NCBI RefSeq assembly: GCF_900111015.1
Contig: NZ_FOFS01000001.1
Coordinates: 124,001 to 188,000, forward strand
Direction: 5' to 3'
DNA from: Solimonas aquatica
GTDB taxonomy: Bacteria; Pseudomonadota; Gammaproteobacteria; Nevskiales; Nevskiaceae
DNA: 64,000 nt
A program made the translations under genes and the position numbers. Numbering within the stretch: position 1 is the first letter of the stretch; each line of letters begins with the position of its first letter. Positions 42,374-64,000 of the stretch are shown here, piece after piece. The notes under the pieces were generated by a model that was not told the origin of the DNA, ran no database searches, and was given only the letters and a program-made list of their open reading frames with translations.

Positions 42374-42539
42374 CTAGTGTCGTGAGTCAGAAGTTCCTTG
42401 ATGAAGTCGCCGAGGATTTTTCGTGGCTGGCAAGGCGCGCCGACGAGGCATAGTGGTGACTATGGCGAGGAGGCGCAACGCCGCCAGACGCGAAAAAGAC
42501 CGGCGAATTCACATGCGAATTTCTGACTCACGACACTAG
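42374..42539. mobile_element. 166-bp MITE, IS630/Tc1-type (TA target)
   Basis: The ends are perfect inverted repeats of 19 bases, CTAGTGTCGTGAGTCAGAA at 42374-42392 and its reverse complement at 42521-42539. Each end carries the CTAG whose TA is the hallmark target duplication of IS630/Tc1-type elements. There is no coding capacity. The interior is imperfectly self-complementary, with a clear CATAGT-GGTG-ACTATG hairpin in the centre. The right end overlaps the last codon of the TolC-like gene. No matching transposase is in the window, so it would depend on one elsewhere. Confidence 0.85.
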
Positions 42540-43897
42540 GGCGCGGCATGAATGTCGAGTGCGCCGATGGTTCGGGCCAGTCGCGTGCGGGCGGCGGCCC
42601 AGTTGCTGCGGGCCAGCACCAGTTGCTGGCGTGCATCGGCTGCGGCGTTCTGCGCGTTGATCAGATCCAGAATGATGCCGATGCCGGCTTCGTAGCGGGC
42701 ACGGGCCAGAGATTCGGATTCCTGCGCGGCGTCGAGCAGTATCGCCGCGCTGCGCGCCGCCTGGGTCTGCGTGATCAATTCACTGTGCGCGAGATAGACC
42801 TCGGTGCTCGCGGCCAGACGCAGACGTTGCAGCTCGGCCTGTGCCAGATCGCGCTCGGCTTCGGCGGCGCGCACGCGGTTGTGATCCTCGAAGCCGCGAA
42901 ACAGCGGCACGCTCAAGGTGAGGCCCAGCGCCGAACTTTCGCGCAGCTCGCCGGCGCTGCGGTTCCAGCGCTGCGTGACGGTGCTGGACAGTGTCGGCAG
43001 GCCGCTGGATTTCACGGCGCGCAGATTGGCTTCGGCAGCGCGCAGACTGGCTTCGGCGGCCAGCAGATCGGCGCGCGACTGCAGGCTCGCGGCAATCAGC
43101 GGTTCCAGCTGTTGTTCATAGTCGGCCGCCGGCTGCGCCGCTTCGACGGCCGCCAGATCGAGCGCCGCGTTGGCCGGCAGGCCCATGGCCGCCCTCAGCT
43201 CGCCGCGCGCCGCGCGGGCGCGGCCTTCAGCCTGCGCGCGCAGCAGCTGGCTGCGTGCATGTGCGGTCTGCGCCTGCAGACGATCCGCGCGGGTGCCCGA
43301 ACCGACGGCTTCGCGCAGCACCGCCGCATCCAGGCTGGACTGCGCGGCGCGTTCGGACTCGCGCGAAGCGGCGAATGCCCCTTCGGCCGCCAGCCAGGCG
43401 TAGTAAGCCGTCACCGCGTCCAGGTACACCGCCTGCAGCACGTCAATGCGCGAAGCCTGCGCCAGATCGAGCCATGCGGCGGCGCGGTCCAGCGCGGCGC
43501 GACGTCCGCCGGAATCCAGCAGCAGATAGCTCAGCGTCGCGCTGTTGTTCAGGCGTGTACGCGTGCCGCTGCCGGAGTCGCTGCTGCTGTCGCTGCCCAC
43601 CAGCGGGTCGCTGTACACGCTGCTGAAGTTCAGCGCCGGCAGATAGGGCGCATAAGCCGCGCTGTGGCTGGCCTGCGCCGCGCGCAGCCGGGCCCAGGCC
43701 TGCGCGCTGCGCGGATTGCGACACAGCGCGATGTCCACCACATCGCCCAGTTGCAGCGCGGTCTGCGGCAGCGCCGTGCAATCAGCCGGCGGGGCCTCGA
43801 CCGGCGCGGCGCCGGCTGGCTGCGGCAACAGGGCGAGCAGCAGCAAGGCCGGCAGCGCGCGGGCGAATGCGTTCAAGAGCGGGTTCGGCAATGCCAA
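42536..43897 (-). CDS. TolC-family outer-membrane efflux protein
   Basis: A 453-residue exported protein (signal peptide about residues 1-30). It has the twofold helical-hairpin layout of TolC: a first repeat with LNNSATLSYLLLDSGGRRAALDRA and a second with LGLTLSVPLFRGFEDHNRVRAAEAERDLAQ, and long Ala/Arg/Gln-rich coiled coils between. It forms a trimeric export channel spanning outer membrane and periplasm. Its stop codon TAG (42538-42536) is provided by the terminal CTAG of the adjoining MITE, so the original C-terminus was probably altered by the insertion. The gene follows the first amidase by nine bases. No RND pump or HlyD partner is encoded nearby. Confidence 0.92.
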   Translation of the reverse strand: MALPNPLLNAFARALPALLLLALLPQPAGAAPVEAPPADCTALPQTALQLGDVVDIALCRNPRSAQAWARLRAAQASHSAAYAPYLPALNFSSVYSDPLVGSDSSSDSGSGTRTRLNNSATLSYLLLDSGGRRAALDRAAAWLDLAQASRIDVLQAVYLDAVTAYYAWLAAEGAFAASRESERAAQSSLDAAVLREAVGSGTRADRLQAQTAHARSQLLRAQAEGRARAARGELRAAMGLPANAALDLAAVEAAQPAADYEQQLEPLIAASLQSRADLLAAEASLRAAEANLRAVKSSGLPTLSSTVTQRWNRSAGELRESSALGLTLSVPLFRGFEDHNRVRAAEAERDLAQAELQRLRLAASTEVYLAHSELITQTQAARSAAILLDAAQESESLARARYEAGIGIILDLINAQNAAADARQQLVLARSNWAAARTRLARTIGALDIHAAP

Positions 43898-43906
43898 GGG
43901 TGCTGA

Positions 43907-45544
43907 TCAGAAGCGGATCACATCACTGCCGAGCGCCGGCGTGTGCTTGGGCAGACGGATTGCCTTGCTGGCCTGCTCGAAGTCATAGCCATAGGAAATC
44001 AGCTTGGGCTCGGTCCAGGCCTGGCCGAAGAAGGAGATGGTCACCGGCAGACCTTCCGCCGTCATGCCGGCAGGCACGATCAGATCCGGATAACCGGTCT
44101 GGTTGGCGAAGTTGGTGGGTGAATCGCTGGGCGCGGGCGTCTTGGTGACGATGGGCTGCGCCGGACGCGGCGAGGTGGGATAGACGATGGCATCGAGCTT
44201 GTGCTTGGTGAACAGCGCGTCGATGGCGGCCTTGGTGGCGCCCACGCCCTGGTTCCGGGTCGCCAGGTACACCGGATCATCCACGGCCAGCGCGATGGAA
44301 TTGGTGTAGTTCAGGCCCACGGCTTTTTCCGGACTGCGATAGCCGGTCCTGGGATCGTTGACGCGCGCCACGATCTCGTCCAGCGTCTTGGGAAAGCCGG
44401 GCCCGGTGGTCTTCAGGTAGGTGGCGATGTCGGCCTTGAATTCGGCGCTGACCACCAGGTTGTAGATGCCCTGGCGGTTCTGCAGGATGGGATCGGGATA
44501 CTTCACGTCGATCAGCGTCGCGCCCTGCTTCTTGAGCGTGGCCAGCGCGCTTTCCATCACCTGGTCGGTGCCGGCGTCCTTGCCCATGAAATCACGCGCC
44601 ACACCGATGCGCGCGCCCTTGAGCGAACCGGTTTTCAGATACGGCGTGTAGTCGGTCTTGAAATGAGCGGCGCTGGCGGCGGTGGCTGCATCGGCGGCAT
44701 CGACACCGGTCATGGTGCCGAGCGTGATCGCCACATCGCGCACGCTGCGCGCCATCGGGCCGCCGGTGTCGAAGGACAGGCCCAGGGGGACGATGCCGTC
44801 GCGGCTCATCAGGCCGCGCGTGGGCTTGAGACCGGCGATGCCATTGGCCGAGCAGGGACCGCGCACCGAACCACCGGTGTCGGTGCCCAGACCGAAGGGC
44901 GCGAAGTTGGCGGCCACCGCTGCGCCGGTGCCGCCGGAGGAACCGGCCGGGCCGCGCGTGGGGTCATGCGGGTTGCGCGTCTGGCCACCGGCGGAGCTGA
45001 AGCCATTGGGCACGCGGCCCTTGGCGGCAATCTCTTCCGGCGCACCGCTCACCGAGCCGCCGCTGCCGGCGAACTCGGAAAGATTCACCTTGGCCAGCAC
45101 GATGGCGCCGGCCTCGCGCAGCTTCTTCACCACGAAAGCGTCGTCCGGCGGCACATGGCCTTCCAGCAGCTGAGAGCCCGCCGTGGTCTGCAGATCGAAG
45201 GTGTCGTAATTGTCCTTGAGCACTACCGGGACGCCATGCAATGGTCCACGCAGCTTGCCGGCCTTGCGTTCGGCATCCAGCTTGCGCGCCTCGTCCAGCG
45301 CCTTGGCGTTGAGCAGAATCACCGCGTTGATCTGCGGCCCTTTCTTGTCGTAGGCCTCGATGCGCTTGAGGTACGCCTGCACCAGCGCCTCTGAACTCAA
45401 GCCCTGCTTGAACGCGGCCTGGATTTCGGTGATGCCGGCCTTGTCGATATCCAGCGTGCCGGCGTAGGCCTGCGGCAGCGTGGTGAAGCTGAGCAGGGCG
45501 GCCAGGGCGAGGGGACGTAAGCGGAGGGTGAGCGATGCGGACAA
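43907..45544 (-). CDS. Exported amidase-signature enzyme (first of four)
   Basis: A 545-residue secreted amidase with a signal peptide ending near residue 29 (AYAG). The amidase-signature triad is complete: K110 in VVLKDNYDT, cis-Ser S202 in PAGSSGGTG, and nucleophile S226 in TDTGGSVRGP. The cis-Ser and nucleophile numbers coincide with those of Stenotrophomonas peptide amidase (S202, S226). Such enzymes hydrolyse amides, often C-terminal amides of peptides or aryl and fatty amides. It shares an operon direction with tolC nine bases downstream. A 547-base repeat-rich gap separates it from the next amidase upstream. Confidence 0.93.
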   Translation of the reverse strand: MSASLTLRLRPLALAALLSFTTLPQAYAGTLDIDKAGITEIQAAFKQGLSSEALVQAYLKRIEAYDKKGPQINAVILLNAKALDEARKLDAERKAGKLRGPLHGVPVVLKDNYDTFDLQTTAGSQLLEGHVPPDDAFVVKKLREAGAIVLAKVNLSEFAGSGGSVSGAPEEIAAKGRVPNGFSSAGGQTRNPHDPTRGPAGSSGGTGAAVAANFAPFGLGTDTGGSVRGPCSANGIAGLKPTRGLMSRDGIVPLGLSFDTGGPMARSVRDVAITLGTMTGVDAADAATAASAAHFKTDYTPYLKTGSLKGARIGVARDFMGKDAGTDQVMESALATLKKQGATLIDVKYPDPILQNRQGIYNLVVSAEFKADIATYLKTTGPGFPKTLDEIVARVNDPRTGYRSPEKAVGLNYTNSIALAVDDPVYLATRNQGVGATKAAIDALFTKHKLDAIVYPTSPRPAQPIVTKTPAPSDSPTNFANQTGYPDLIVPAGMTAEGLPVTISFFGQAWTEPKLISYGYDFEQASKAIRLPKHTPALGSDVIRF

Positions 45545-45699
45545 GGCGGGCCTCGGGATTGGCAGAGAAGTGGATGGTTCTTGTCTGCTAAGACGGCGCC
45601 GCCCGGCAGCGCCCTACGTGCTTCGCGCCAAGCATGCTGCGTAGACGCAACGCAATTCTGGCGAAGACGCGCACGCAGGAAGACCTGTGGGCCTGCAGG

Positions 45700-45730
45700 G
45701 CGGGTTAGGCGCGCCAGCGCCGCAACCCGC
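45700..45730 (+). repeat. REP-like palindromic repeat, left outer copy
   Basis: GCGGGTT-A-GGCGC-GCCA-GCGCC-GC-AACCCGC folds as a hairpin in itself, and it matches the reverse complement of 46052-46082 at 30 of 31 positions. It is typical of REP/BIME units scattered between genes. Confidence 0.85.
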
Positions 45731-45780
45731 GATGGCTTTGCTGATCGTTGCTGCGTGTGATGCTCGATCTATTGGCTTCC

Positions 45781-45869
45781 GTAGCCCGGATGCAGCGAAG
45801 CGGAATCCGGGGGCTCATCGCTCACCGCCATCAACAGCCCCGGATTGCGCTTGGCTTCATCCGGGCTAC
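45781..45869. repeat. Inner inverted pair of GTAGCCCGGATG-type repeats
   Basis: The 32-base unit at 45781-45812, beginning GTAGCCCGGATG, is repeated in inverse orientation at 45838-45869 with 29 of 32 positions identical and a 25-base spacer. The pair could form one long hairpin. Similar units are common intergenic REP-like repeats in gamma- and betaproteobacteria. Confidence 0.85.
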
Positions 45870-46051
45870 ACAAGCTTTGGCTTTGCTTTTCAAACCCCTT
45901 TGCGTCGCACGCAAGCAGCGCTTAGCTTCCGGCGCCGCGACTGCGGCGACGGATGCGACGCGTAGGGCGCGCTTCTGCTGCGGGCGCCTAAGGGCGCACG
46001 AAACCAAAGCCCAATCAAGAGATCAGCTAAGCCCAGAACAGCAAAACGATG

Positions 46052-46082
46052 GCGGGTTACGGCGCTGGCGCGCCTAACCCGC
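46052..46082 (-). repeat. REP-like palindromic repeat, right outer copy
   Basis: Inverted copy of 45700-45730, ending nine bases before the stop codon of the second amidase gene, so it may protect that mRNA's 3' end. Confidence 0.85.
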
Positions 46083-46091
46083 CTTACGGTT

Positions 46092-48374
46092 TTAGTGCTT
46101 CACCGGGCCGAAGTCTGGTGGCGGCTGGCGATGGTGCGTCGCGGCTTCATAGGCTGTGCCGATACGAATCAGCGTCGGTTCGGCGCCTTGGCCGGCGAAG
46201 AAGGTGATGGCAATCGGCATCGGCTTGGCCAGCTTGCCGGGCCTGGCATCAGGTGGCAGCGCGGATTCGTAGTCGCTGCGATCCTTGTTCAGCACGTACA
46301 CCGGCTCCACGACGGTCTGCGTCATGCCGGCCGGAACCACCACGCGCGGAATCTGGAAGAAGGGCGTGATGCCATCCAGACTGATGCTGCCGACATTGGG
46401 CCCGAGAATCTTCGGCGTGGGCACCGTGTTCTCCGGATGCACGAAGGCATCGATGCGGTTCTCGCGCATCATCTTCTCCAGCGCCAGCCGCGCCACGTAA
46501 CTGCGTGCCAGACGCTCGCTCTTGCCCTCGTCGAAATGGCCCTTGAAGCTGATCCAGTTCTCGGCGCCGGCACGCGACTCATCCTCACGGAACTTGGCAT
46601 TGGCCACCCAGCTCGGCCAGTCGCGCACGCGGGCGTCGCCACGTTCCGCCAGATAACGGTCGATGTCGAAGCGCAGATCGGCGCAGAGGCTGTTCTGACA
46701 GGGCAGCGCGGCGAAGCCGGCGAAGTTGACCATGTTGATCTTGTCGGTCAGCGGCGCCTGATGTCGGCTCAAGGCCTTCAGATAATCGTAGGACGTGACG
46801 TCATGCCCCGGCACGGCAAAGTACAGCTCGCCCTTCTTGTCGCGACGCGTGAAGATCTCCGGCATCAGCCTCGGCAGGATTTCCGCCAGCGCATCGTTGA
46901 AGCTGAATTGCACATTGGCCACCTCGGGATCGTCCGGATACCCGGCCGTGACCGTTTCCACCAGTTCCGCGCCCAGCTGATCGCGCAACACGGTCTTGAT
47001 CTCGCGGTCGATCTGATCGGAGATGGCGACATGATTGGCGGTCTTCTTCACCATGTGCTCGCGCAGAATCGCGATGCGCATGCCCTTGAGCGGCTTGCCG
47101 GCGCCGCTGGCCACCACATAGCGGGAATAGGGCTGCGGCGGCAGCAGCGCCTGCGGCACGGCGGTGAAGGGATCGTGCGGATCGAAGTAGCCTTGCTCGG
47201 CATCCTTCACGGCATCGAGCACGCGTACGGTGTCGGCCAGATGCAGGGCGTGCACACCAGCGCGGTCGTTGAACCACTGATAGCCGATGCCGCCGTTGTC
47301 CGGCAGCAGGCCCTTGGTGGTCAGCAGCGTGGCCACGCCATTGCGCGAGCCCGGTCCCTGGCAGGAGGCGCCGGACTGTTCGCAGATGCCGATGGTGGCG
47401 AGATTGGCGCCGATGGCCGCACCCGAGCCGCCACTGGAACCGCGCGTGACGCGCTCGGTGTCGTAGGGATTGCAGGCCTGTCCGCTCCAGGAGCCGAAAG
47501 CCTGACCGCCGTTGACCAGATTGGTCTTCGGCTTGGCGGCGCCGCCGGGATCACCCGGACCGCCGTTGAATTCATGTGCCACTGATTTGGCGTAGATGAT
47601 GGCGCCCTTGTCGCGCAGGCGTGCGATGAGAGTGGCGTCGCGCGGCGGCGCATCCATTGCAAAATTCACATCGTTGTTGGCGGTGCTGCGCATGTCGCGG
47701 GTGTCGTAGACATCCTTGATCGCAACCGTCACGCAGTACAGCGGCAGCTTGTTCAAGTCGGGCTTGCGGCCGTATTGCGCATCGAGTTCGGCGGCGCGCT
47801 CCAGGGCATCGGGCTGGCGACGGAATTCCTCGCAGATCTTGGGCGCATCGGCCGGCAGCGGACCGCTGGAAGGATGCGCATCGAAGCGGCCCTTGCAGGT
47901 CACCGAGCGCTCGCCGCGCAGGTTCAGCGTTTCCAGGGCATTGACCTGGCCGGCGTTGGCCATGCCCACGCGCATGCCCATCTGCTGCATCACGGACGGG
48001 TCGGACACGGTCGCTTCCATGCGACCGTAATCCAGGGGCAGACCGCGATACTGATCCAGATCCGGCAGCAGCGATGAAGCCTTGACCGTGCGCGTCGGAA
48101 ACTTCAGCACCGCGCCGGCACGGCGCATGCCGAAGGCCGGCGCGACATCGGCGCCGTCGGGGGTGAGCAGCGCGGTGCAGATGCCGTTGTAGGCGCGGGC
48201 GCGGGCCAGATAGGCCTCGACCACGCCCTTGCAGCTGGTGGCGCCGGAACGGATCGCGTCGTGGATCTGCGCGATGCTGGCCTCCTCGACTTGAAAAGGA
48301 GCCGCCTGCGCTTGTGCGCAGGCGGTGGACAACAGGAGGTTCAGGCTCAGAGCCTGTAAGCGGAAGGCAGACAT
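46092..48374 (-). CDS. Exported long amidase-signature enzyme (second of four)
   Basis: A 760-residue secreted amidase (signal peptide to about residue 25). The triad K220 (VAIKDVYDT), S313 (RGSSGGSG) and S337 (CEQSGASCQ) is intact, with the exact 24-residue Ser-Ser spacing of the family. Compared with the 520-550-residue members of this cluster, it has about 100 extra residues between the N-terminal helix and the lysine, and further insertions in the second half. Cysteines are frequent, some shared with the third enzyme (SVTCKG, PLYC, ACNPYDTE), suggesting periplasmic disulfides. The start at 48374 has GGAGAG upstream. It is four bases after the third amidase gene and is clearly a tandem paralogue of it (ending AYEAATHHRQPPPDFGPV). 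Confidence 0.92.
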   Translation of the reverse strand: MSAFRLQALSLNLLLSTACAQAQAAPFQVEEASIAQIHDAIRSGATSCKGVVEAYLARARAYNGICTALLTPDGADVAPAFGMRRAGAVLKFPTRTVKASSLLPDLDQYRGLPLDYGRMEATVSDPSVMQQMGMRVGMANAGQVNALETLNLRGERSVTCKGRFDAHPSSGPLPADAPKICEEFRRQPDALERAAELDAQYGRKPDLNKLPLYCVTVAIKDVYDTRDMRSTANNDVNFAMDAPPRDATLIARLRDKGAIIYAKSVAHEFNGGPGDPGGAAKPKTNLVNGGQAFGSWSGQACNPYDTERVTRGSSGGSGAAIGANLATIGICEQSGASCQGPGSRNGVATLLTTKGLLPDNGGIGYQWFNDRAGVHALHLADTVRVLDAVKDAEQGYFDPHDPFTAVPQALLPPQPYSRYVVASGAGKPLKGMRIAILREHMVKKTANHVAISDQIDREIKTVLRDQLGAELVETVTAGYPDDPEVANVQFSFNDALAEILPRLMPEIFTRRDKKGELYFAVPGHDVTSYDYLKALSRHQAPLTDKINMVNFAGFAALPCQNSLCADLRFDIDRYLAERGDARVRDWPSWVANAKFREDESRAGAENWISFKGHFDEGKSERLARSYVARLALEKMMRENRIDAFVHPENTVPTPKILGPNVGSISLDGITPFFQIPRVVVPAGMTQTVVEPVYVLNKDRSDYESALPPDARPGKLAKPMPIAITFFAGQGAEPTLIRIGTAYEAATHHRQPPPDFGPVKH

Positions 48375-48378: not shown

Positions 48379-50664
48379 TCACGGCTCTCCGGCGACCGGA
48401 CCGAAGCCCGGCGGCGGACGGCGGTGATGCGTGGCCGCTTCATAGGCCGAGGCCACTTTCAGAATCACCGCCTCGTCGCCCGGCCCCGCCCAGAAGGCGA
48501 TGTTGTAGGGCAGGGGATTTTTCAGCTGTGTGGGCTTGCTGCCGGCCACGGTCTCGTACTTCTTGCCATCGGCGCTGAGCTTGAACTCCGGCTCATAGTT
48601 GCTGCTGACGAAGCCGGCCGGCACGAACACTTCCGGCGTGCCCAGACGCGCGCCGTAGCCGAAGCCCGCGCGCAGCTCGCTGTTGGGCTGGCTGGGGCCA
48701 CCCAGCTTGGCCGGCACCGTGGACAGCGTGGCATTGGCGAACACATCGATCTTGTTCTGCTCCAGAACCTTGATCACCGCCATGCGCATCACCTCGCGGC
48801 GCTTCATGGTGTAGGTGGTGTCGTAGGTGCGCGGGTCGATGGCCTTGTTCTCCCAGTTCTTCGCCGAGGCAGCCTTGGCGTCACTGAAGTACTTGGCATT
48901 GGCGTTGAGGCTCGTCCAGTCCTTGATTTTTGCGTCGCCGCGCAGGCCCAGGTACTGGTCCATGTTGAAGGCGAAGCTGTAGCCGGTGACGCTGTCCTCG
49001 TTGCTCGGCGGATTGCCGAAGATGCGCCGGAAGTTCAGGTTCTTCGGCAGCGGCGCCTGATGGTTGGCCACCGCCACCAGATACTTGCGGCTGCTGACAT
49101 CCCAGCCTGGCACCTCGAATTCCGGCTTGCCGTCCTTGGTCTTCCAGGAGAACACCTCCGGCATGTGGAAGGGCAGCACCTCGGCCATCGCGTCCTGCAT
49201 GGTGAAGGCCATGTTCGGAATCGAAGGATCGTCGGCCACCTGCGGATCGGTGGTCTCCACCAGTTCGGCGCCCAGCGCGCGCAGCACCTTGAGCTGCTCA
49301 TTCACGCCATCGATCATGCCGGCGTCGCTGGGCGTGTGCTTCACATACAACTCGCGGATCACGCCGATGCGCACGCCCGCCAGCGGCTTGTCGCTACCTG
49401 CCGGACTGAGTGCTTCGACGAAAGACTTGGCATAGGGCAGGTTGCGTGGCAGCGCGGTGTAGGCGTCGCCGGCGTCGAAGTAGCGGCCGGTCTTGGTGTC
49501 GCGGAACGCATCCATCACCGTCGCCGCGTCCTTGACGCTGCGGCAGAGAATGCCGGGGCGATCCTGGTAGGGATTCGCACCGATGGCGCCGGCGTAGGAG
49601 ATCATGCCCTTGGTCGGCACGAAGTTGACCACGTTGTTGTGCGTGGCCGGATTGCGGCAGGAGCCGCCGGTGGTTTCGCAGATCGAGCAGACCACCAGAT
49701 TGGCCGCCACCGAAGTGCCGGAGCCGCCGGAAGAACCGCCGGTCTCACGCTCGGTGTCATACGGATTGCAGGTGGTGCCGCCCCAGGCTTCGCGTGCACC
49801 GGCTGCGCCGATGTACGGACGCTTGACCTTGGCATCGCCACCCGGATCGCCGCTGCCGCCGTTGTACTCGGAGTTCAGCGCATGGGCGTAGATGATGGCG
49901 CCGGCACTGCGCATGCGCGCGGTGAGCGTGCCGTCCTTGGGCGCAAAGTCGGTGGCGTAGGCGGCATCGCCGCCACCGGTGGAACGCATGTCCTTGGCGT
50001 CATACACCGCCTTGGTGGACATGGGCACGCAGTACAGCGGCATGGCCTTGAGATCCGGATTGCGTCCGTACTGACGGTCCAGGGCCGCGGCCTGCTCACG
50101 GGCGTCCGGCAGCTTGCGGAAGTCATCGCAGGCCTTGGGGCAGTGCGCCGGCAGCGCGCCGCCGGCGGCATCGCATTCGGCCTTGCAGCTCATGCTGCGT
50201 TCACCGCGCACATTGATGGTGTCCAGGGCATTGATGCCGCCGGCCTTGGGGATGCCGGCCACCATGCCGTACTGCTGATACACGCTCGGGTCCGACTTGG
50301 TGGGTTCCATGCGGCCGAAGTCGGGCGTGTCGCCCTTGTAATTCTTGTAGTCAGGCAGGTGCTTGTCGATTGCCACCGTCTTCTGCGCAAACTTCAAGGG
50401 CACACCGGCGCGCAGCGCGCCGAGCACCGACGGTGCGGCCTTGCCGTCCTCGGTGATCAGCGCGGTGCAGGAGCCGTTGTAGGCCTTGGCGCGCGCCAGA
50501 TAGGCATCGACGATTCCGGCGCAAGTCACTTCGCCGGAGCGGATGCCGTTGTGGATGTTTTCGATGCTGGTTTCTTCCAGCTTGAACGAGGCTGCTGCGG
50601 CGCTGCCGGCACACAAGGCCAGCAGCGTCGTCAGCAGCGTTTTGGCAAGAATGCGTGAGCGCAT
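48379..50664 (-). CDS. Exported long amidase-signature enzyme (third of four)
   Basis: A 761-residue secreted amidase (signal peptide to about residue 25) closely related to the second enzyme of the row in length, cysteine pattern and C-terminal AYEAATHHRRPPPGFGPV. The triad is K218 (STKAVYD, where the usual Asp after Lys is Ala), S311 (GGSSGGSG) and S335 (TTGGSCRNPA). The start at 50664 has GGGGAG at eight bases. The 96-base gap to the fourth amidase gene has no obvious terminator. The two long enzymes have probably diverged after tandem duplication, which may widen the range of amides cleaved. Confidence 0.92.
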   Translation of the reverse strand: MRSRILAKTLLTTLLALCAGSAAAASFKLEETSIENIHNGIRSGEVTCAGIVDAYLARAKAYNGSCTALITEDGKAAPSVLGALRAGVPLKFAQKTVAIDKHLPDYKNYKGDTPDFGRMEPTKSDPSVYQQYGMVAGIPKAGGINALDTINVRGERSMSCKAECDAAGGALPAHCPKACDDFRKLPDAREQAAALDRQYGRNPDLKAMPLYCVPMSTKAVYDAKDMRSTGGGDAAYATDFAPKDGTLTARMRSAGAIIYAHALNSEYNGGSGDPGGDAKVKRPYIGAAGAREAWGGTTCNPYDTERETGGSSGGSGTSVAANLVVCSICETTGGSCRNPATHNNVVNFVPTKGMISYAGAIGANPYQDRPGILCRSVKDAATVMDAFRDTKTGRYFDAGDAYTALPRNLPYAKSFVEALSPAGSDKPLAGVRIGVIRELYVKHTPSDAGMIDGVNEQLKVLRALGAELVETTDPQVADDPSIPNMAFTMQDAMAEVLPFHMPEVFSWKTKDGKPEFEVPGWDVSSRKYLVAVANHQAPLPKNLNFRRIFGNPPSNEDSVTGYSFAFNMDQYLGLRGDAKIKDWTSLNANAKYFSDAKAASAKNWENKAIDPRTYDTTYTMKRREVMRMAVIKVLEQNKIDVFANATLSTVPAKLGGPSQPNSELRAGFGYGARLGTPEVFVPAGFVSSNYEPEFKLSADGKKYETVAGSKPTQLKNPLPYNIAFWAGPGDEAVILKVASAYEAATHHRRPPPGFGPVAGEP

Positions 50665-50760
50665 GCGTTGTTGCTCCCCGAAGCGGATGCACGCCGGCTG
50701 GATCTGCCGGCTCCAGTTCAGACGCGGCACCAGCCGCATGCCCCTACGTCGGCGCCGCGA

Positions 50761-55430: not shown

Positions 55431-55952
55431 TCAGAAGCTGAAGCGGTCCGCGAGCCGCTCCGTCTCCAGACGGACGCGGCGGCGGAAGTAGTGCACGGGG
55501 TAGAGGCCGGAGATGCTCACCGCAAGGCCGGTGAGCGTGCAGATCATCGCCTCCGACACGCCGTTGGCCATCGAGCGCGCATCGGCCGAACCGCGGGCGG
55601 CCATGGCGTCGAAGACATTGAGCATGCCCGAGACCGTGCCCAGCAGACCCAGCAGCGGACACAGCGGCACCAGCACGCGCAGCAGCTGGATGTTGGCCGA
55701 CATGCCGGAGTTGAGCGTGGAGATCATCGCCTTGCGGATCTGGTGCGCGATCCAGCTGCTGCGCTCCGGACGCGCCTGCCATTCCATCAGCAGGCGCTCG
55801 GTCTGGCGCGGCAGCACGCCGGTGAAGAACCAGTAGCGCTCGATCACCAGGGTCCACATCACCAGGCAGGCGGTGAAGATCGCCATCACCACCGGCCCGC
55901 CCAGGTGGCGCATCTCCACCATGGCCTCGTAGGGGGCGAGCAGATCAGCCAT
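55431..55952 (-). CDS. exbB: ExbB/TolQ/MotA-family proton channel
   Basis: A 173-residue ExbB with three transmembrane helices: VVMAIFTACLVMWTLVIERYWF near the N-terminus and LLRVLVPLCPLLGLLGTVSGMLNVF and GVSEAMICTLTGLAVSISGLYPVHYF later. It makes the pentameric channel around ExbD. It is shorter than E. coli ExbB (244) and matches the ExbB2 type found with TtpC. Its start overlaps the ttpC-like stop by eight bases, showing translational coupling. Confidence 0.93.
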   Translation of the reverse strand: MADLLAPYEAMVEMRHLGGPVVMAIFTACLVMWTLVIERYWFFTGVLPRQTERLLMEWQARPERSSWIAHQIRKAMISTLNSGMSANIQLLRVLVPLCPLLGLLGTVSGMLNVFDAMAARGSADARSMANGVSEAMICTLTGLAVSISGLYPVHYFRRRVRLETERLADRFSF

Positions 55953-57327
55953 GGCGCGCCGCCTCCAGGCGACCGGCCAGCAGGCCCGTGCTCTGCTCGT
56001 CGAGAATCTGCAGGATGGACTTGGAGATCGAGGTCAGCCAGGCGTTGGCGAACAGCAGCGGGATGGCGATGCCCAGGCCCAGCACGGTGGCGATCATGGC
56101 CTGCGAGATGCCGGCGGCCATCAGCTTGGGATCGGAGGAGCCCGATTCGGTGATGCTCTGGAAGGTCACGATCATGCCGACCACGGTGCCGATCAGGCCG
56201 AGCAGGGGACCCGCGGCCACCGCCAGGCGCAGGAAGGACTGGAAGCGTTCCAGCTTCGGCGCCTCCTTGAGCACGGCCTCGGAGATGCGCAGTTCCACGA
56301 TTTCGGCGTCCTCTTCGAGCTTGGCGGCGCTCCCCTGGAAGGTGGCCAGCACGCGGCCCAGCGGGTTGTCCGTCTTGGGCGACTCGATGCTGGCGAGCTG
56401 CAGCTTGACCCGGGCACGCACCATCATCAGATAGGTGAACTGATAGATCGCAAGACCCGCGCCAATCAGGCCGACGAGGATGATGATGTAGCCCACCGCC
56501 TCACCACGGTCGATGCGCTCCTTGATGTTGGGACGCTGCGAGTAGATCGACAGCAGCACGCCGCGGGTGGGATCGACCATCGCGCGCACGAAGCCGGACT
56601 TGGCTTCCTCCACTTCCTCCGCCGCGTCGGTGAACTTGGACGTGGGCTGACGCGCCATGACCGCCAGCTGGCCCTGCGTGGACAGATAGCTCAGGTACTT
56701 GCCGCCGGTGCTGGCGGTGAACGGACCCACGCGCACCACGCTGGCCGGCACCGGCTTGCCGTCCGGCATCACCACCTTGGTCTGATAACGCACCACCTTG
56801 CCGCTCTCGGTCATCTCGCGCTGCATCTCGAACCAGAAGCGCTCCAGCACTTCGATCGAGGGCAGGGCCTTGCTCTGTGCCAGCTCGGTCACGAAGTCCT
56901 GACGCTTGGGGAACTGCGCGCTGATGATCGAGGTGCGCACCACGGAGGAAAAGTCGTTGGCCACCTGACGCACCACGCCGAACATCTCGCCGAGATTGCC
57001 GGCGCGCGCTTCCAGCTCCGCCGTCAGCTCGCCCAGGCGCTTCTCATTGGCGTCGAAGCCGCCGGTCAGCGCCGCGCCGCGCTTGCGCTCGGCGGCGAGT
57101 TCGGCCTTGGCCTCGGCCAGCAGTGCGGCCTGCTTGTCGCGGGCGGCGGCAAAGCGCGATTCGCGTTCGGCATTGAGGCTGGCTTCCTGATCCCGTGAGT
57201 TCAGGGTCTGCTGCAGGAGCTCGTCGAGATTGCCCGGCGCAGCGGCGGATGCACAGGTGCTGAACGCCGATGCACCGAAGGCGAGCGCGAGGCCGATGAG
57301 CGTCGCTTTGAATGGCGCGCGGAACAT
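55945..57327 (-). CDS. TtpC-like protein: periplasmic coiled coil fused to a MotA/TolQ/ExbB channel
   Basis: A 460-residue protein. A signal-like N-terminus to about residue 29 is followed by a periplasmic region of about 240 residues that opens with a coiled coil (AALLAEAKAELAAERKRG). The rest is an ExbB-type module with three transmembrane segments (GYIIILVGLIGAGLAIYQF, AVAAGPLLGLIGTVVGMIVTF, MIATVLGLGIAIPLLFANAW). In Vibrio, TtpC is needed for TonB2-dependent uptake and spans the periplasm toward the outer membrane. The start codon overlaps the stop of the DUF3450 gene (TAATG). Confidence 0.9.
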   Translation of the reverse strand: MFRAPFKATLIGLALAFGASAFSTCASAAAPGNLDELLQQTLNSRDQEASLNAERESRFAAARDKQAALLAEAKAELAAERKRGAALTGGFDANEKRLGELTAELEARAGNLGEMFGVVRQVANDFSSVVRTSIISAQFPKRQDFVTELAQSKALPSIEVLERFWFEMQREMTESGKVVRYQTKVVMPDGKPVPASVVRVGPFTASTGGKYLSYLSTQGQLAVMARQPTSKFTDAAEEVEEAKSGFVRAMVDPTRGVLLSIYSQRPNIKERIDRGEAVGYIIILVGLIGAGLAIYQFTYLMMVRARVKLQLASIESPKTDNPLGRVLATFQGSAAKLEEDAEIVELRISEAVLKEAPKLERFQSFLRLAVAAGPLLGLIGTVVGMIVTFQSITESGSSDPKLMAAGISQAMIATVLGLGIAIPLLFANAWLTSISKSILQILDEQSTGLLAGRLEAARHG

Positions 57328-58100
57328 TACTTGATCTCCTTGGCAGCGGGAACGGCAACCGCGAGAAAGTCAGGCGCGGCTTGCTTCTTGGCGATTTTCA
57401 GACCGGCCTTGATGTCGTCGCCGTACTCCGGCGCGGCCACCCATTTGCGGGCACCGGCATCCCAGTAGCCGGTTTCCTTGCCGTCGAGCGTCTGGTAGAG
57501 CAGAGCGACACGGCCGGCGCGCAGGAAGTCCACGGTCTTCTCGCCCACCTTGCCCTGATAGGCCTCGATGGTGCGGCCGTACTCCATCTCGATCTGATAG
57601 GCCTCGACCACGCGCCGGTACTTCTCGGCCAGCGAGACGTCGGCGCGGCTCATCATCTCCTTGAGCCCGGCGATGCGCTTGGCGCGCTCCTCCGGCAGGA
57701 AGGGCATGTCCAGGCTCACGAACTTTTCCAGCGTGGCCAGCATGCGGGTGACCATGGGCAGTGCATCGCGCGCGGTCTGGCCCACCTCATCGAGCTGCTT
57801 CTGCAGCGAGGCCAGCTCTTCGTTCTGCGACTTCACCTGGATGGCGAGCTGATCGTTGTAGGATTTCAGGCTCTGCTGCTCAGCCAAAACCTGACGGTAC
57901 TCCGCCAGCATGCCGCTGGCCTCGTCGTCGAGCTTGGTGACCTTGGCCTGCGAAGCCTTGGCGGCTTCCTCGTTGCGGGTCTGTTCGCTGATCACCGTCT
58001 TGACCTTCTCGTGCTCGACGGCGCCGGCGAGCTGCGAGGCGGACAGCGCGCATACCGCTGCTGCAATCAGACCGACACGATGTTTATGCATGAAAAACAT
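57327..58100 (-). CDS. DUF3450-family periplasmic coiled-coil protein
   Basis: A 257-residue exported protein (signal peptide to about residue 26, LAGA). The first half is a long coiled coil (ASQAKVTKLDDEASGMLAEYRQVLAEQQ), and the second holds MPFLPEERAKRIAGLKEMMSRADVSLAEKYRRVVEAYQIEMEYGRTIEAY, typical of DUF3450. The family is nearly always the first gene of ttpC-exbB-exbD-tonB cassettes, and its exact role is unknown. The start at 58100 has GGGAG at about ten bases; an ATG three codons later is possible. It lies 17 bases after the receptor gene. Confidence 0.9.
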   Translation of the reverse strand: MFFMHKHRVGLIAAAVCALSASQLAGAVEHEKVKTVISEQTRNEEAAKASQAKVTKLDDEASGMLAEYRQVLAEQQSLKSYNDQLAIQVKSQNEELASLQKQLDEVGQTARDALPMVTRMLATLEKFVSLDMPFLPEERAKRIAGLKEMMSRADVSLAEKYRRVVEAYQIEMEYGRTIEAYQGKVGEKTVDFLRAGRVALLYQTLDGKETGYWDAGARKWVAAPEYGDDIKAGLKIAKKQAAPDFLAVAVPAAKEIK

Positions 58101-58117: not shown

Positions 58118-60874
58118 TCAGAAATCCATCTTCAGGGTGAATTCGAGGCGACGGCCCGGCATTACCGATACAAGATTGGTGCCGGTATCGGAGTTGCGCG
58201 CGCGAAAGTAAATCTCGTCGAACAGGTTGTAGGCGTTGAGCTTGAACTGCCATTTGCGCCAGTCGTAGGTCATGGCGGCGTTGGCGGTGGTGGACTGCGG
58301 CAGCTTCATGCGCTGCAGGCGGTCGGCGTACACCGAGGAGAACCAGGTGCCGCCGAACATCAGGCCCACGCCGTTGTCGAAGTTGTAGTTGAGGTTGAGG
58401 CTGGCCTGCTTGTCCGGCGTGCCGGTGCGCTTGCGGTAGCCCTTCAGCACATCGGCCGGAATGTTCATCTGCACGCGGCCGCCGTAGAGGAAGGCCTCGG
58501 CCGGATAGACCAGATTGCCGGCGGAGTCGTAGACGTCCTGGAAGCCCAGATCGCGGCCGTTGAATTCATACGCGCCGGACTGATCGACGATGTACTCGGC
58601 CTTCTGCAGCACGGCATAGCCCTGCACCGAGAAATGCTTGTCCGGATTCCACTTCAGCTCCACCTCGGTGCCCTTGGTCTCGGTGCTGGAGACTTCGGCG
58701 CTGGCGGTGGGATCGGCGGCGCTGGAGATGTCGGTGCGGGTCTGCTTGTAGTTGGCGACGGTGAGGAACAGGCGGTCGTTGAACCAGCCCGCCTTCAGGC
58801 CGTACTCCACCAGGGTGGCATCGCCGATATGGCCGCCCGGTGCCGCGACGGTGTCGTAGACCATGATGTTGTTGGCGCCGTCCAGCGAGACGCTGGAGAT
58901 GGCGCGGGTGAAGTAGGGGCGCAGGCCCAGCGGCAGCTTCTGCGAGATCGAGAAGCTCCAGGACTTGCCGCCGTCCCAGCCGTGAATCGTGCGTTCCGGC
59001 AGATAGCTCGCGGTGGTGGCGTTGCTGGCGTTTTCGTTGAATCGGCGGAAATCGGTGGCCTTGGCGCGCGAGCGGTCGTAACGCGCGCCCAGCACCACAT
59101 TGGTGTTCTTGAAGATGTCGATGTCGAACATCAGGCCGGCGCCGAATTCGTTGAAGGCGCTCCAGCGCGCAGTGGTCACCGGTGCGCCGGTTTCGAAGCT
59201 TTCGTTGTCGAGCTGGTTCCAGAAGATGGTGTTGGGATAGTGATTGCCCTTGCGGAACATCACGTCCTGGCGATAGTCGAAGTCGCCGCCGGAGCTGCGG
59301 ATCTCGCCGGCGGTGCGGCGGTAGTTGAGCGAGGCCAGGCTGTTGACGCGCAGCCACTGCGGCAGAATCTCGTCGGGAATGCGCTGCGTGAAGGTGATCT
59401 TCTCTTCCCACAGGCGGATGTCCTGCTTTTCGCCATAGGGCAGATAGGAGTTCTTGAAGGAATCGAGATGATCCATGAAGAACTGGCTCTTCACCGTCGA
59501 GTCCGGATTCTTGTCGTAGACCAGATCGAAGAACAGCAGGCCGAGCTTGGCGTCCTGGATGCGTTCGTAGGAGCCGTTGCGGTGATAGTTGACCGGCACC
59601 AGCGAGATGGTGCGCGGATCCAGCGCAAAGCCGATCGGCAGCTGCTGGGAAGAGGTGGCCGAACCCGGCTTGGGGCCGCCGCGACCGGCGGCGAGCATCG
59701 CCTGTCCCTGCGGGCTGGCAGCGAGTTCCGGATTGGCCTGAATGGCGTCGTAGAGCAGGGTGGGAATGCCCGGAATCTTCGGAAAGTCGTCGGGACGGCA
59801 CAGACCGTAGGAGCAGGTCGGCCAGTTGAAGGTCTGGTTGAGCGGGCGGTTGCCGCCGCTGACGTTGCCACGGATCGGCGAGTTGGCATGCGTTTCACGA
59901 AAGCCCACCGCACCGTCGCCGGCGCCGAGCAGGCTGCCGTTGAGTGATGCGCCGGAATCGAGATTCACCAGCGGCTGGCCGGAGATGTACACGCCACGAT
60001 CGATCAAGGCCTGCGTGGCGCGGTTCATGTACGCGCCGGAGGTGATCGAGTTCTGGATCTGCGTGCCGGTTTCCAGACGGAACGGACCGAGGAAATTGTC
60101 CAGCGAGAAAGTGGCCTGCAGGATGCGCTGCTGCGCGCCGACCTTGTCGACGAAGCTGCCGGAGTTTTCCACCAGACCGTAGATGTAGAAGCCGCCGTTG
60201 CGGTCCAGGACATTGATCGGGCCGCCCGCACCGGCGGAGATTTCCGACTTGGAGTAGTCGCCGCCCACCATCTGCGCAAAGCCGGTGAGCTTGTCGGCGT
60301 AGGCGCCCATCTTGGCGCGTCCGGACTTCGGTGTGAGATTGCTGTAACCGCCGATCTTGCCCATGCCGTAGATCGGCGAGGGCGGACCCTTGATGACTTC
60401 AATGGAATCCATCGCCGCCAGCGAGGTGCGTGCATGGCCCTGCATGTTGATGCGCTTCATGCCGCGGAAGTACATGTCGGCGGCCACACCGCGGACGTTG
60501 ATGCCACCTTGCAGACCGTAGCGCGTGGTGGTGAAAGTGCCGGGCACCACGCGGGTGAGATCGTCCACGGAAGAGATGCCCATCAGGCTCAGCTGCTCGG
60601 AGCTGACGAAGGATACGGTGCGCGGCGTTTCCAGAATCGGCTTGGTGAAGCCGATCGAAGAGCCCGTGGACTCGTTGACCAGCGAACTCAAGGCATCCTC
60701 GGTGACCACCATGTCGCTGAGCGAAGAACCTTCCGTGGCGACGGGGGTGGCGGCTGCCTTGTCGGTCTGTGCCTGTACGGCGCCGCTTGCCGTGAACGCG
60801 GCAATCGCAAGGGCGATATCGCTCAGAGCGAAGCGGAATGTCCCTTGGCGGGGCTTACGCAGAGGTTGACGCAT
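58118..60874 (-). CDS. TonB-dependent receptor without signalling domain
   Basis: A 918-residue outer-membrane receptor. The signal peptide ends near residue 36 (AVQAQ). A TonB box-like DMVVTED precedes the plug (about 60-215), which contains PRTVSFVSSEQLSLMGISSVDDLTRVVPGT and IEVIKGPPSPIYGMGKIGGYSNLTPKSGR. The 22-strand barrel ends with FNAYNLFDEIYFRARNSDTGTNLVSVMPGRRLEFTLKMDF. The plug is of siderophore-receptor type, but loop sequences do not reveal the ligand. The start at 60874 has GGAGATG upstream. The 113 bases before it contain a small inverted repeat (GCGCTTG at 60897-60903 with CAAGCGC at 60912-60918), possibly regulatory. Confidence 0.93.
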   Translation of the reverse strand: MRQPLRKPRQGTFRFALSDIALAIAAFTASGAVQAQTDKAAATPVATEGSSLSDMVVTEDALSSLVNESTGSSIGFTKPILETPRTVSFVSSEQLSLMGISSVDDLTRVVPGTFTTTRYGLQGGINVRGVAADMYFRGMKRINMQGHARTSLAAMDSIEVIKGPPSPIYGMGKIGGYSNLTPKSGRAKMGAYADKLTGFAQMVGGDYSKSEISAGAGGPINVLDRNGGFYIYGLVENSGSFVDKVGAQQRILQATFSLDNFLGPFRLETGTQIQNSITSGAYMNRATQALIDRGVYISGQPLVNLDSGASLNGSLLGAGDGAVGFRETHANSPIRGNVSGGNRPLNQTFNWPTCSYGLCRPDDFPKIPGIPTLLYDAIQANPELAASPQGQAMLAAGRGGPKPGSATSSQQLPIGFALDPRTISLVPVNYHRNGSYERIQDAKLGLLFFDLVYDKNPDSTVKSQFFMDHLDSFKNSYLPYGEKQDIRLWEEKITFTQRIPDEILPQWLRVNSLASLNYRRTAGEIRSSGGDFDYRQDVMFRKGNHYPNTIFWNQLDNESFETGAPVTTARWSAFNEFGAGLMFDIDIFKNTNVVLGARYDRSRAKATDFRRFNENASNATTASYLPERTIHGWDGGKSWSFSISQKLPLGLRPYFTRAISSVSLDGANNIMVYDTVAAPGGHIGDATLVEYGLKAGWFNDRLFLTVANYKQTRTDISSAADPTASAEVSSTETKGTEVELKWNPDKHFSVQGYAVLQKAEYIVDQSGAYEFNGRDLGFQDVYDSAGNLVYPAEAFLYGGRVQMNIPADVLKGYRKRTGTPDKQASLNLNYNFDNGVGLMFGGTWFSSVYADRLQRMKLPQSTTANAAMTYDWRKWQFKLNAYNLFDEIYFRARNSDTGTNLVSVMPGRRLEFTLKMDF

Positions 60875-60987
60875 ATCATCTCCGTTGAAGAGGCAGGCGC
60901 TTGTCACTGGTCAAGCGCTGTATTCGGAGAATCAGACGTGACCTTGCGTGGTCTCCCCTACCTGAGGGTGCACGTCGGCGCCGCTGC

Positions 60988-63900
60988 TCAGAAGCTGGCA
61001 GCCAGCGAAAACTGGAAGCGTCGTCCCGGCATCGCGGACACCGGCAGGTCGGCTAGCGTGTCGCCGTTGCGGGCGCGAAAGTATTGCTCGTCGAACAGAT
61101 TGAAGGCGTCCAGGCGCAGCTGCCAGACGCGGCGGTCCCATTGCAGACCGGCGTTGAGCACCACGGCCTGCGGCAGGCGGATCAGGCGCAGGCGGCCGGC
61201 GTAGACGCTGGAAAAATAGTTGCCGCTGAGACTCGCGCCCAGACCGTTGTCGAGACGCGCCTGCAGGGTCATGCCGAGCTGGGTGTTGGGATTGCCTTGC
61301 TTTTCGCGATAGGCATTGAGATTCGGTGGCAGCTGCACGAAGGCGCGGCCGCCGAACAGGAAGGCTTCGGCGGGATACACCACGGCGCCGGTGGCGGGAT
61401 CACGCACATCCTCGAAACCCAGGCTGCGTGCGTCGATCAGAATCGAGCCGCCGCGATTTGGCGCATACACGGTCTTCTGCACCAGGCCGTAGAGCGAGGT
61501 GAAGAAGTTGCGTGCCGGCACCCATTTGATCTCGGTTTCCCAGCCACGCGTGATGGTGGAGGAAACCTCGGCAGTGATGGTGGGATCATCCGGCACATGC
61601 ACATTGATGCGGCGCTGTTCGTAGGCCGCGCTGCTGATGAACAGGCGCCGGTCCAGCAGCATGCCCTTGATGCCCACCTCGCTCAGTCGCGACTGGCCGA
61701 TGTGTCCGGCCTGAATCACCGGATTGGGCAGGCGGTTGGCGTTGTTGTCGAGCGTCAGGCTGGCCTGCGCGATCGTGACATAGGGGCGCAGATCGTAGGG
61801 CAGATGCGGCGACACGCTCAGCGACCAGGACGCGCCCTGATCCCAGCCATGCACTGCACTGTTGCCCTGTGCCGGCATGCCGGGCGCCGCCGAGGTGCCG
61901 CCCACTGCGACGGTGTCGGCATATTCGATATTGCGCGCCAGCGAAACATCCTGACGAGCGCCGAGCATCACATCGAGCGATCGCAGCAGCTCGGCGTCGA
62001 ACATCAGGCCCGCGCCGATCTCCAGCAGGCGGGTGCGGCCATGATCGGTGACCGGCGCGCCGTCCTTGTCGATATCGGAATTGACCAGGCAGTTGGTGAA
62101 GGTGCTGTTCGGTGTCATGCCGCCGCGCGCGTCCACCCAGGTGGCTGCCATGGCGTCGCTGCGGTGGGTGCTGAAATCGCCGAAGCACTGCCTGGAAGGC
62201 GAGTCGGTGTAACGCACATTGAGCGCGCCCAGGGTATTGAGGCGCAGCCAGGAGGGCAGCGCCTGCGCGCGGTGGGTCAGGGTCAGGCGGTCTTCGACCA
62301 CCCAGGGACTCTGGTCGGTGCCGAAGGGCTGTTCGGAAATCTTGTACTGATCCATGCCGTCGAAGAACAGCTGGTTCTTCACGGTGAAATCCGGATCGTG
62401 ATCGTCGATCAGGTCGATGAAGGCGGTGAACAGATCGGCGTGCAGATCACGTTCGAAGGCGGCGAAGCGGCGGCGGTCGAGATGGTCGAAGCCCACGGTG
62501 GCGGGATCCAGCACGAAGCCCACCGGCAGATAGCCGCTGGCGGGCAGCGGACCGCCCACGCCTTGCGCGCGCAGCGCACCGGTGGGATCGGCCTGCGGAT
62601 GCGTCTGCAGATAGTCGTACATCGCCTGCGGAATGCCGGCCACGCGCGGAAAGTCGCGCAGCGGCAGCGGCTGCCCCTGGGCATCCAGCGGCCAGTTCCA
62701 GCGCTGCATCAGCGCCTGGTTGTAGGTGCTCAGCGCGCCGCGCGCCGGCGAGGCGGTGTTGTATTCCAGATAGCCGATGCTGCCGTTGCCGTTGAGATCC
62801 AGATTCACCAGCGGCACGCCGCGGATGTAGCGGCCGTGATCGGCCAGGTCCTGTGTGAAGCGGCCGATCAGCGCGCCGGCGCTGCGCGAGCTTTGCGCGC
62901 TGAAGCCGGTTTCCAGACGCACATGGCCCAGGACATCATCCAGGCTGATGGTGGCCTGCGCGAGCTTGGCATCGAGCGGCACGCCGCGCGCATAGCTTTC
63001 GGAGTTCAGCATCATCGCGAACAGCTGATAGCCGCCATGCAGGTCCAGCAGGCTCAGCGGGCCCTGCACATTGGCGCTGAGTTCGCTGCGCTCGTAGCTG
63101 CCGACCACCGCGCGCATGCGCAGGCGCGAGCTGTCCAGATAGCGGCCGTCGGCGGCCCGCCCCGAGCGCGGCATGACATTGGTGTAGCCGCCGATCTTGC
63201 CCATGCCGTAAATCGGCGAGGGCGGCCCGCGCACCACCTCGATGGAATCCAGCGCCGACAGCACGGTGGGCGTGTGGCCCTGCAGGTTGAGCCGCTTCAT
63301 GCCGCGAAAGAAGGTGTCCGCCGGCACATTGCGCACGTCCACGCCGCCCTGGATGCCGAAGCGCGTCGGTGTATAGGTGCCGGGCACCACGCGCACCAGA
63401 TCCTCCACGGCGGAGAGCCCGAACAGATCGATGCTCTCGTCGCTGATGAAGCTCACCGAACGCGGCGTCTCCAGCAGTGATTTGTTGAAGCCGAAGGCGG
63501 AGCGGCTGAGTTCGGCGGGCAGCACCCGGCTGGGGTCCTCCACCACCGTGATATCGCTCAGCTCCATGCGCCCGGTCTGAAGTGCCGGTGGTGTGTAGGC
63601 CGGCGGCAGCACGGGCGAGGGCCGTGTGATGCCCGGTGCCTGGGGCGGTTCGCTGCCGGGACGCTGGATGGCGACGGTGCGGCCGTCGAGCAGACGCCAG
63701 CGCAGACCGGTGCCGGCCAGCAGACGGTTGAGCACCTCGGCGGGCGGCATGGCGCCCACGGTTTCCGGTGTCGGGCGCTGTCGCGGCAGATCGGCGCCGT
63801 AGATCAGCTGCAGGCCGCTTTGCTCGCTGAAGCGGTCGAGCGCATCGGCCAGCGTGCCGCCGGGAATCCGGAAATAGGGATTGAGCGTGTCGGCTTCAAC

Positions 63901-64000
63901 CTGCGCACAGGCCGTCGGCGGATGGCCGCCGCCGGCCGCCAGCAGCGCCGCCAGCAGCAGGCGCAGCGGGCGGCGGCGCCAGCGGCTGAATTCAGATTCG
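60988..64000 (-). CDS. TonB-dependent receptor with N-terminal STN domain, 5' end outside the window
   Basis: About 1004 codons are visible; the frame is open to the right edge, so the start lies beyond 64000. The first visible residues include a signal-type stretch (RLLLAALLAAGGG) followed by an STN (secretin/TonB short N-terminal) domain: FRIPGGTLADALDRFSEQSGLQLIYGADL and AEVLNRLLAGTGLRWRLLDGRTVAIQ. STN domains signal to a FecR/FecI-type anti-sigma pair, so gene activation by the ligand is possible. The TonB box is near LSDITVVED. The plug and barrel are clearly paralogous to the next receptor (LDSIEVVRGPPSPIYGMGKIGGYTN, ending FNLFDEQYFRARNGDTLADLPVSAMPGRRFQFSLAASF). Confidence 0.93.
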   Translation of the reverse strand, partial: ESEFSRWRRRPLRLLLAALLAAGGGHPPTACAQVEADTLNPYFRIPGGTLADALDRFSEQSGLQLIYGADLPRQRPTPETVGAMPPAEVLNRLLAGTGLRWRLLDGRTVAIQRPGSEPPQAPGITRPSPVLPPAYTPPALQTGRMELSDITVVEDPSRVLPAELSRSAFGFNKSLLETPRSVSFISDESIDLFGLSAVEDLVRVVPGTYTPTRFGIQGGVDVRNVPADTFFRGMKRLNLQGHTPTVLSALDSIEVVRGPPSPIYGMGKIGGYTNVMPRSGRAADGRYLDSSRLRMRAVVGSYERSELSANVQGPLSLLDLHGGYQLFAMMLNSESYARGVPLDAKLAQATISLDDVLGHVRLETGFSAQSSRSAGALIGRFTQDLADHGRYIRGVPLVNLDLNGNGSIGYLEYNTASPARGALSTYNQALMQRWNWPLDAQGQPLPLRDFPRVAGIPQAMYDYLQTHPQADPTGALRAQGVGGPLPASGYLPVGFVLDPATVGFDHLDRRRFAAFERDLHADLFTAFIDLIDDHDPDFTVKNQLFFDGMDQYKISEQPFGTDQSPWVVEDRLTLTHRAQALPSWLRLNTLGALNVRYTDSPSRQCFGDFSTHRSDAMAATWVDARGGMTPNSTFTNCLVNSDIDKDGAPVTDHGRTRLLEIGAGLMFDAELLRSLDVMLGARQDVSLARNIEYADTVAVGGTSAAPGMPAQGNSAVHGWDQGASWSLSVSPHLPYDLRPYVTIAQASLTLDNNANRLPNPVIQAGHIGQSRLSEVGIKGMLLDRRLFISSAAYEQRRINVHVPDDPTITAEVSSTITRGWETEIKWVPARNFFTSLYGLVQKTVYAPNRGGSILIDARSLGFEDVRDPATGAVVYPAEAFLFGGRAFVQLPPNLNAYREKQGNPNTQLGMTLQARLDNGLGASLSGNYFSSVYAGRLRLIRLPQAVVLNAGLQWDRRVWQLRLDAFNLFDEQYFRARNGDTLADLPVSAMPGRRFQFSLAASF

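Follow-up and report, generated by a model that had tools for sequence, protein, structure and literature searches.

Polysaccharide utilisation loci (PULs) and other catabolic loci built around TonB receptors with Fec-type signalling combine a receptor and FecI/FecR-type control with numerous exported hydrolases in a single locus. In lasso peptide isopeptidase clusters of the AtxE type, a TonB-dependent transporter and a sigma/anti-sigma pair accompany an enzyme for the opening of an amide bond (PMC9266682), and the TonB2 and TonB3 systems of Vibrio have the arrangement TtpB-TtpC-ExbB-ExbD-TonB-TtpD (PMC6957404). We analysed a locus of a Solimonas-group bacterium from soil or fresh water, probably a Solimonas-like member of the Nevskiaceae, in which TonB receptors, Fec-type regulators, a TonB motor and exported amidases stand together. 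Our main reading, to which we assign a probability of about two in three (0.68), is that the block of genes described below forms the core of a nitrogen-gated, surface-signalled locus for amide import and hydrolysis that is organised like a PUL.

The window, meaning the whole 64,000-nucleotide stretch of DNA that was analysed, corresponds to C28:124001-188000 in a 4.43-Mb genome. A Pfam domain scan of its open reading frames recovered every gene that a preliminary description had listed between 42536 and 64000, each where it had been placed and all on the minus strand. Features are given below in window positions unless a contig position is shown; gene starts are those of a simple caller and may be inaccurate.

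42536-43897, minus strand: TolC-family outer membrane channel (TolC/OEP; PF02321, E 7e-51; TIGR01844 below cut-off)
43907-45544, minus strand: Am545, Sec-type exported amidase-signature enzyme (PF01425, E 6e-99; catalytic K-S-S)
45592-45617, minus strand: putative ECF-type promoter, GTAGGG-N16-CGTC, 48-73 bp upstream of Am545
46092-48374, minus strand: AmL760, exported amidase of the long form, extended by about 110 residues near the N terminus (PF01425, E 2e-34)
48379-50739, minus strand: AmL786, long-form exported amidase with a Cys-rich insert (PF01425); true start probably near 50664
50721-50747, minus strand: putative ECF-type promoter, GTAGGG-N17-CGTC, upstream of AmL786
50761-52341, minus strand: Am526, exported amidase (PF01425, E 3e-83)
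52542-53828, minus strand: TPR protein in the TtpD position of the Vibrio TonB2 system (TPR families; PMC6957404)
53843-54550, minus strand: TonB (PF03544)
54558-54974, minus strand: second ExbD (PF02472)
54996-55415, minus strand: first ExbD (PF02472)
55431-55952, minus strand: ExbB (PF01618)
55945-57327, minus strand: TtpC-like MotA/ExbB protein (PF01618 and a weak DUF3450 match)
57327-58100, minus strand: DUF3450 protein in the TtpB position (PF11932, E 2e-77)
58118-60874, minus strand: TBDR2, large TonB-dependent receptor (PF07715)
60935-60961, minus strand: putative ECF-type promoter, GTAGGG-N17-CGTC, upstream of TBDR2
60988-64000, minus strand: TBDR1, FecA-like transducer receptor with an STN signalling domain (PF07660, E 3e-8, and PF07715), ending at C28:188062
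C28:188163-189787, beyond the window: fecR and fecI (FecR PF04773; sigma-70 regions 2 and 4)
C28:431027-432682 (locus L012:16027-17682), second cluster: B551, His-rich membrane protein (orthologue without a Pfam match)

The two TonB receptors, which had been called related, are 47% identical. The cassette beside them is complete, as described: TtpB (DUF3450), TtpC, ExbB, ExbD, TonB and TtpD (TPR) are encoded in order, with one extra ExbD, as in a six-component TtpC-type TonB system. A second DUF3450 copy, on contig C17 of the same genome, is a housekeeping one.

The block had been taken to end at 64000; it does not. The TBDR1 reading frame extends 62 bp past the window and is followed by fecR and fecI, and the full locus occupies 38.6 kb (C28:166536-205121). 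An ECF sigma factor, a FecR anti-sigma and an STN receptor are thus encoded side by side, in the same order in relatives, as in FecI-FecR-FecA surface signalling. After fecR and fecI come, in order, a 644-aa amidase, an AcrB-type RND pump, an MFP adaptor and a 528-aa amidase (in this genome, neighbouring genes of the amidase-RND-MFP-amidase stretch overlap by 4 bp or lie 12 bp apart), then a divergent 547-aa amidase on the plus strand, a cytochrome c', a cytochrome b561, an AhpC/TSA protein and two Tat-type amidases. At a distance of 222 kb lies a second cluster (C28:427276-439457). Besides four further exported amidases, it encodes two asparaginases of type II, B551 and an exported hydrolase of the FmdA/AmdA type, the last assigned through the domain match of its orthologue. 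The count of four exported amidases in the preliminary description holds for the window, where all four have an N-terminal hydrophobic leader and a complete catalytic triad, but the locus contains nine and the second cluster four more, which brings the exported amidase-signature enzymes to 13; four of these 13 have Tat-like leaders. The B551 family is conserved and accompanies the system, with a copy of the GTAGGG motif (see below) upstream; a fold search on its predicted model, which was weak (pLDDT 70), returned no match.

The TolC gene is indeed part of the block in this genome, 10-30 bp downstream of an amidase and in the same orientation, but it is not conserved with the system. TolC was not seen in gene maps of the relatives' loci and was therefore rejected as a conserved component; the exporter that is conserved is the RND-MFP pair, which lies beyond the window. 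TolC probably completes this pump in the present strain only.

Several other features were observed in and around the block. The 547-bp gap between Am545 and AmL760 contains, at 45699-46083, a 48-nt inverted repeat of 90% identity and a 38-nt REP-like inverted repeat. A 39-nt inverted repeat at 42374-42539 reaches the TolC stop codon and is possibly a small mobile element or a terminator. On the minus strand at 38847-42341, a 1164-aa open reading frame without a Pfam match lies antisense to well-supported amidohydrolase and Rieske oxygenase genes and is probably not a gene. Beside the block, at 27873-37102 (C28:151873-161102), is an acyl-CoA beta-oxidation-like cluster with a TetR regulator, judged from gene sizes and leaders only; this cluster is not conserved with the amidases.

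Membership of the amidase signature family (PF01425) follows from the domain matches, from the Lys-Ser-Ser triad (Lys, cis-Ser and nucleophile Ser), which is kept in 84 of 84 aligned amidases, and from the amidase signature fold of the AmL786 model. AmL760 and AmL786 are 45% identical, and the long form is marked by its extra residues and conserved cysteines. Of the AmL786 residues K243, S336 and S360, the first and last are conserved in all of 40 homologues and S336 in 90% or more; the triad being intact, decay of catalysis in the long amidases was ruled out. An AlphaFold2 model of AmL786 (pLDDT 86.5) retrieved Tse8 and the peptide amidase PAM as top structures in Foldseek (TMt 0.80 to 5ac3). 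The nearest solved structure for Am526 is the peptide amidase of S. maltophilia (E 1e-84), and the same holds for the short forms in general. The closest NCBIfam model to Am545 is PRK08137 (peptide amidase, PAM-like), whose equivalog cut-off of 534 bits was reached neither by three short forms (457 for Am545, 369 and 401 for the other two) nor by a long form, at 142. A tree of 84 locus amidases from six genomes contained at least 13 orthologous clades, each spanning several genera, so the battery consists of long-standing paralogues; recent tandem duplication was ruled out because the orthologous clades cross genera. PF01425 matches number 14-29 in genomes that carry the locus and 2-9 in relatives that lack it.

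To what extent do receptor and amidases occur together? Among 100 genomes, TBDR2 and the long-form amidase were both present in 12, the amidase alone in two, the receptor alone in one and neither in 85; in the receptor-only genome the contig ends inside the amidases. This association is more than chance (Fisher p ~1e-12 across the 100 genomes and ~1e-9 within the family, with relatedness ignored). In a class sample of 369 genomes, no TBDR2 match at 1e-60 was found besides this genome. The set is conserved but patchy in the Nevskiaceae, and its mixed presence within four genera indicates that gain or loss was repeated. The same genes were found in Hydrocarboniphaga effusa, H. daqingensis, Solimonas flava, S. 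soli and Nevskia relatives, as well as in the more distant gammaproteobacterial MAGs G101 and G102 (distant loci were mapped by tblastn).

The order that recurs in the gene maps is fecI-fecR-TBDR1-TBDR2, usually the TonB cassette, and then the amidases, with RND/MFP, asparaginase, FmdA-type and B551 genes near the recurring loci. In H. effusa the orthologue of Am526 is the first amidase and begins 3 bp past the TPR gene. The amidases directly follow the receptors in S. flava and S. soli, and the TonB cassette was not found in the loci of G003 and G007 (S. flava). Because the receptors of G003 and G007 run straight into the amidases, the cassette appears to be the looser partner. Rarity of the amidases beside the cassette, a possibility raised at the outset, was not what conservation showed: import receptors and amidases are kept together across genera. 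Most long amidases outside this group or outside the Gammaproteobacteria stand alone. A separate case, also in Solimonas, is a compact fecI-fecR-TBDR-five-amidase operon in S. flava (G007:C14:27849-39757, L220) and in G008 (G008:C18:27713-39578, L222). Its receptor belongs to a different family, with about 26% identity to a vitamin-B12-type receptor of this genome, and the sigma54 box and GTAGGG motif described below are absent from both operons. A receptor, Fec-type control and several amidases have thus been paired, or kept, more than once.

When spaced words in upstream regions were counted without bias, the motif GTAGGG-N15-17-CGTC emerged; it was present in 37 of 107 locus upstream regions and in one of 154 others, that one being the locus fecR; shuffled sequences contained 0.035 on average. 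The three copies in the window are all ahead of block genes, and none of 100 shuffles reached three. Genome-wide, a slightly looser pattern matched 26 times, with eight matches inside the two clusters. Among distant genomes and loci, the motif lies ahead of the cassette, receptors, B551 or amidases in G101, G102, L100, L104 and L126 and is absent from four stretches (L121, L115, L137 and one of G106). Held-out partial contigs had it in 3 of 26 cases versus 0 of 29, which is not significant alone, and 3 of 46 lone long amidases carried it. The motif is present on both sides of the 200-bp gap that divides the block into "two halves", and independent regulation of these halves, another possibility raised earlier, was not what we found at the sequence level: one promoter motif is common to both. 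The motif looks like an ECF promoter, and the FecI of the locus would be its obvious reader. By sequence, the genes make up a conserved set with a common putative promoter motif ahead of its units.

Upstream of the locus fecI is a -24/-12 GG-N10-GC box that is near the sigma54 consensus TGGCACG-N4-TTGC (PMC3224663). With hand-set score weights and a threshold chosen after the data had been seen, the box scored at least 23.2 of 24.2 in all seven genomes of the first set and in one of 622 other upstream regions. Orthologues outside the discovery set scored 22.0-24.2 in nine of the other eleven. The box is strong in the Nevskiaceae, which together with G100, G106 and G107 scored 22.7-24.2, and weaker in G101-G103 (20.7), with G104 at 22.0; it is weaker in three of the four most distant fully mapped loci. 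Control fecI genes scored 17.0-21.2, one of them reaching 21.2. An rpoN gene and two NtrC-type activators are near the second cluster. Sigma54 serves other pathways besides nitrogen; for the promoter of this fecI, we infer nitrogen control. The positive control for the sigma54 scan was locus L015 (C7:196001-216000), where sigma54-like boxes lie ahead of a P-II gene and a gene for an NMT1-type binding protein that adjoin a probable urea carboxylase/allophanate hydrolase pair.

A nitrogen-gated amide locus of this kind might operate as follows. Under nitrogen limitation, sigma54 polymerase and an NtrC-type activator would transcribe fecI from the -24/-12 promoter. Substrate on TBDR1 would then signal through the STN domain to FecR and free FecI, and FecI polymerase would read the GTAGGG-N15-17-CGTC promoters to turn on receptors, motor and hydrolases. 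The TonB motor would power import through TBDR1 and TBDR2 of an amide-rich compound whose size or scarcity would rule out entry by porins. In the periplasm, Sec- and Tat-exported amidases of differing specificities, together with the asparaginases and the FmdA-type enzyme, would split its amide bonds, giving ammonia, amines and acids, and the RND pump (with TolC in this strain) would clear amphiphilic or toxic products. In this scheme, the compound imported by the receptors would be the substrate of the amidases. The combination of amidases, asparaginases and an FmdA-type enzyme, with no peptidase family found among the domain-scanned locus proteins, points to amides as a nitrogen source. The initial proposal that receptor import and cleavage by exported amidases form one system is supported by their joint conservation, the common promoter motif and the 3-bp spacing in H. 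effusa.

Other explanations account for parts of these data. General catabolism of peptides or lipopeptides for carbon, with the amidases as peptidases or lipoamidases and nitrogen not the main point, would agree with a peptide amidase as the nearest solved relative of the short forms, and an HAE-type RND pump would suit amphiphilic products. Some amidase-signature enzymes also cleave fatty amides. We consider this explanation unlikely, however, because the scanned proteins lack peptidases, the asparaginases and FmdA-type hydrolase deamidate, and the sigma54 promoter fits nitrogen; the locus may feed carbon and nitrogen alike. Iron acquisition, in which the receptors would import a peptidic siderophore and the amidases would open it to free the iron, is improbable. 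It fits the FecI/FecR/FecA-like regulation and the receptors' weak resemblance to known siderophore receptors (TIGR01783, far under its cut-off; distant PDB matches to FptA, CntO and FoxA). However, the best Fur-box matches upstream of fecI, TBDR1 and TBDR2 covered 8-11 of 19 positions, which is background and led us to reject Fur-controlled iron uptake; the fecI promoter is of the sigma54 type, the locus has no conspicuous siderophore permease or ferric reductase, and 13 amidases with two asparaginases and an FmdA-type enzyme would be excessive for one siderophore. Of the substrates named initially, a nylon-like oligomer, a toxin and a peptide siderophore are unsupported.

We also see little likelihood that the locus protects the cell by destroying or expelling amide-containing antibiotics or toxins of competitors. 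An RND pump found together with hydrolases, and the patchy distribution, are in keeping with such a function, but two receptors and the usual dedicated TonB motor would bring the compound in, and many conserved paralogous hydrolases under nitrogen-type control better suit feeding. That a TonB operon merely neighbours an amidase expansion, without a functional link, is hardly credible: the cassette is absent from two loci and most long amidases outside the Gammaproteobacteria are alone, which speaks for it, but against it stand the co-occurrence across genera, the common promoter motif, receptor-amidase adjacency in G003 and G007, the close spacing in H. effusa and the association in L220 and L222.

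If nitrogen-gated amide import and hydrolysis is the correct reading, amide-rich compounds would be a class of nutrient taken up via TonB receptors by a dedicated system not found in the open-licence literature, and there would be a reason for the 14-29 amidase genes of some bacteria. The regulatory logic is concrete, with a sigma54-type promoter before a FecI-type sigma gene and then one motif across the locus, and the battery of about 13 orthologous groups, with putative periplasmic amide cleavage, would supply enzymes whose specificities are defined and differ. In open-licence papers we found nothing relevant on amidases in Solimonas or Hydrocarboniphaga, on amidase signature enzymes with TonB receptors, or on RpoN with FecI, and the locus looks like an undescribed kind of nutrient-uptake system. 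The chances are about even that it represents an amide counterpart of PULs, a new class of nutrient system in which two keys, nitrogen shortage acting by way of sigma54 and substrate sensing by FecR/TBDR1, together switch on a single regulon that imports an amide-rich compound and takes it apart with a conserved set of more than 12 specialised periplasmic amidases.

Each of the described systems shares part of this organisation. The six kinds of component of Vibrio TonB2/TonB3 are all present, here with two ExbD genes and a fixed association with two large receptors and amidases. The PAM of Stenotrophomonas maltophilia (1m21, 1m22, 5ac3) is a single enzyme, whereas here there are 13 paralogues, among them a long form that carries some 110 additional residues as well as conserved cysteines. 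AtxE clusters likewise join a TonB-dependent transporter and a sigma/anti-sigma pair to an enzyme that opens an amide bond, but that enzyme is one S9-type (prolyl oligopeptidase-like) isopeptidase rather than 9-13 amidase-signature enzymes; no S9-type isopeptidase or lasso maturation protein was among the domain-scanned proteins. Like PULs, the locus groups a receptor, FecI/FecR-type control and many exported hydrolases, and it differs from them in that amides rather than glycosides would be cut, SusD was not found, the ECF sigma gene has a sigma54-type promoter, and a dedicated TonB motor and an RND pump accompany the hydrolases.
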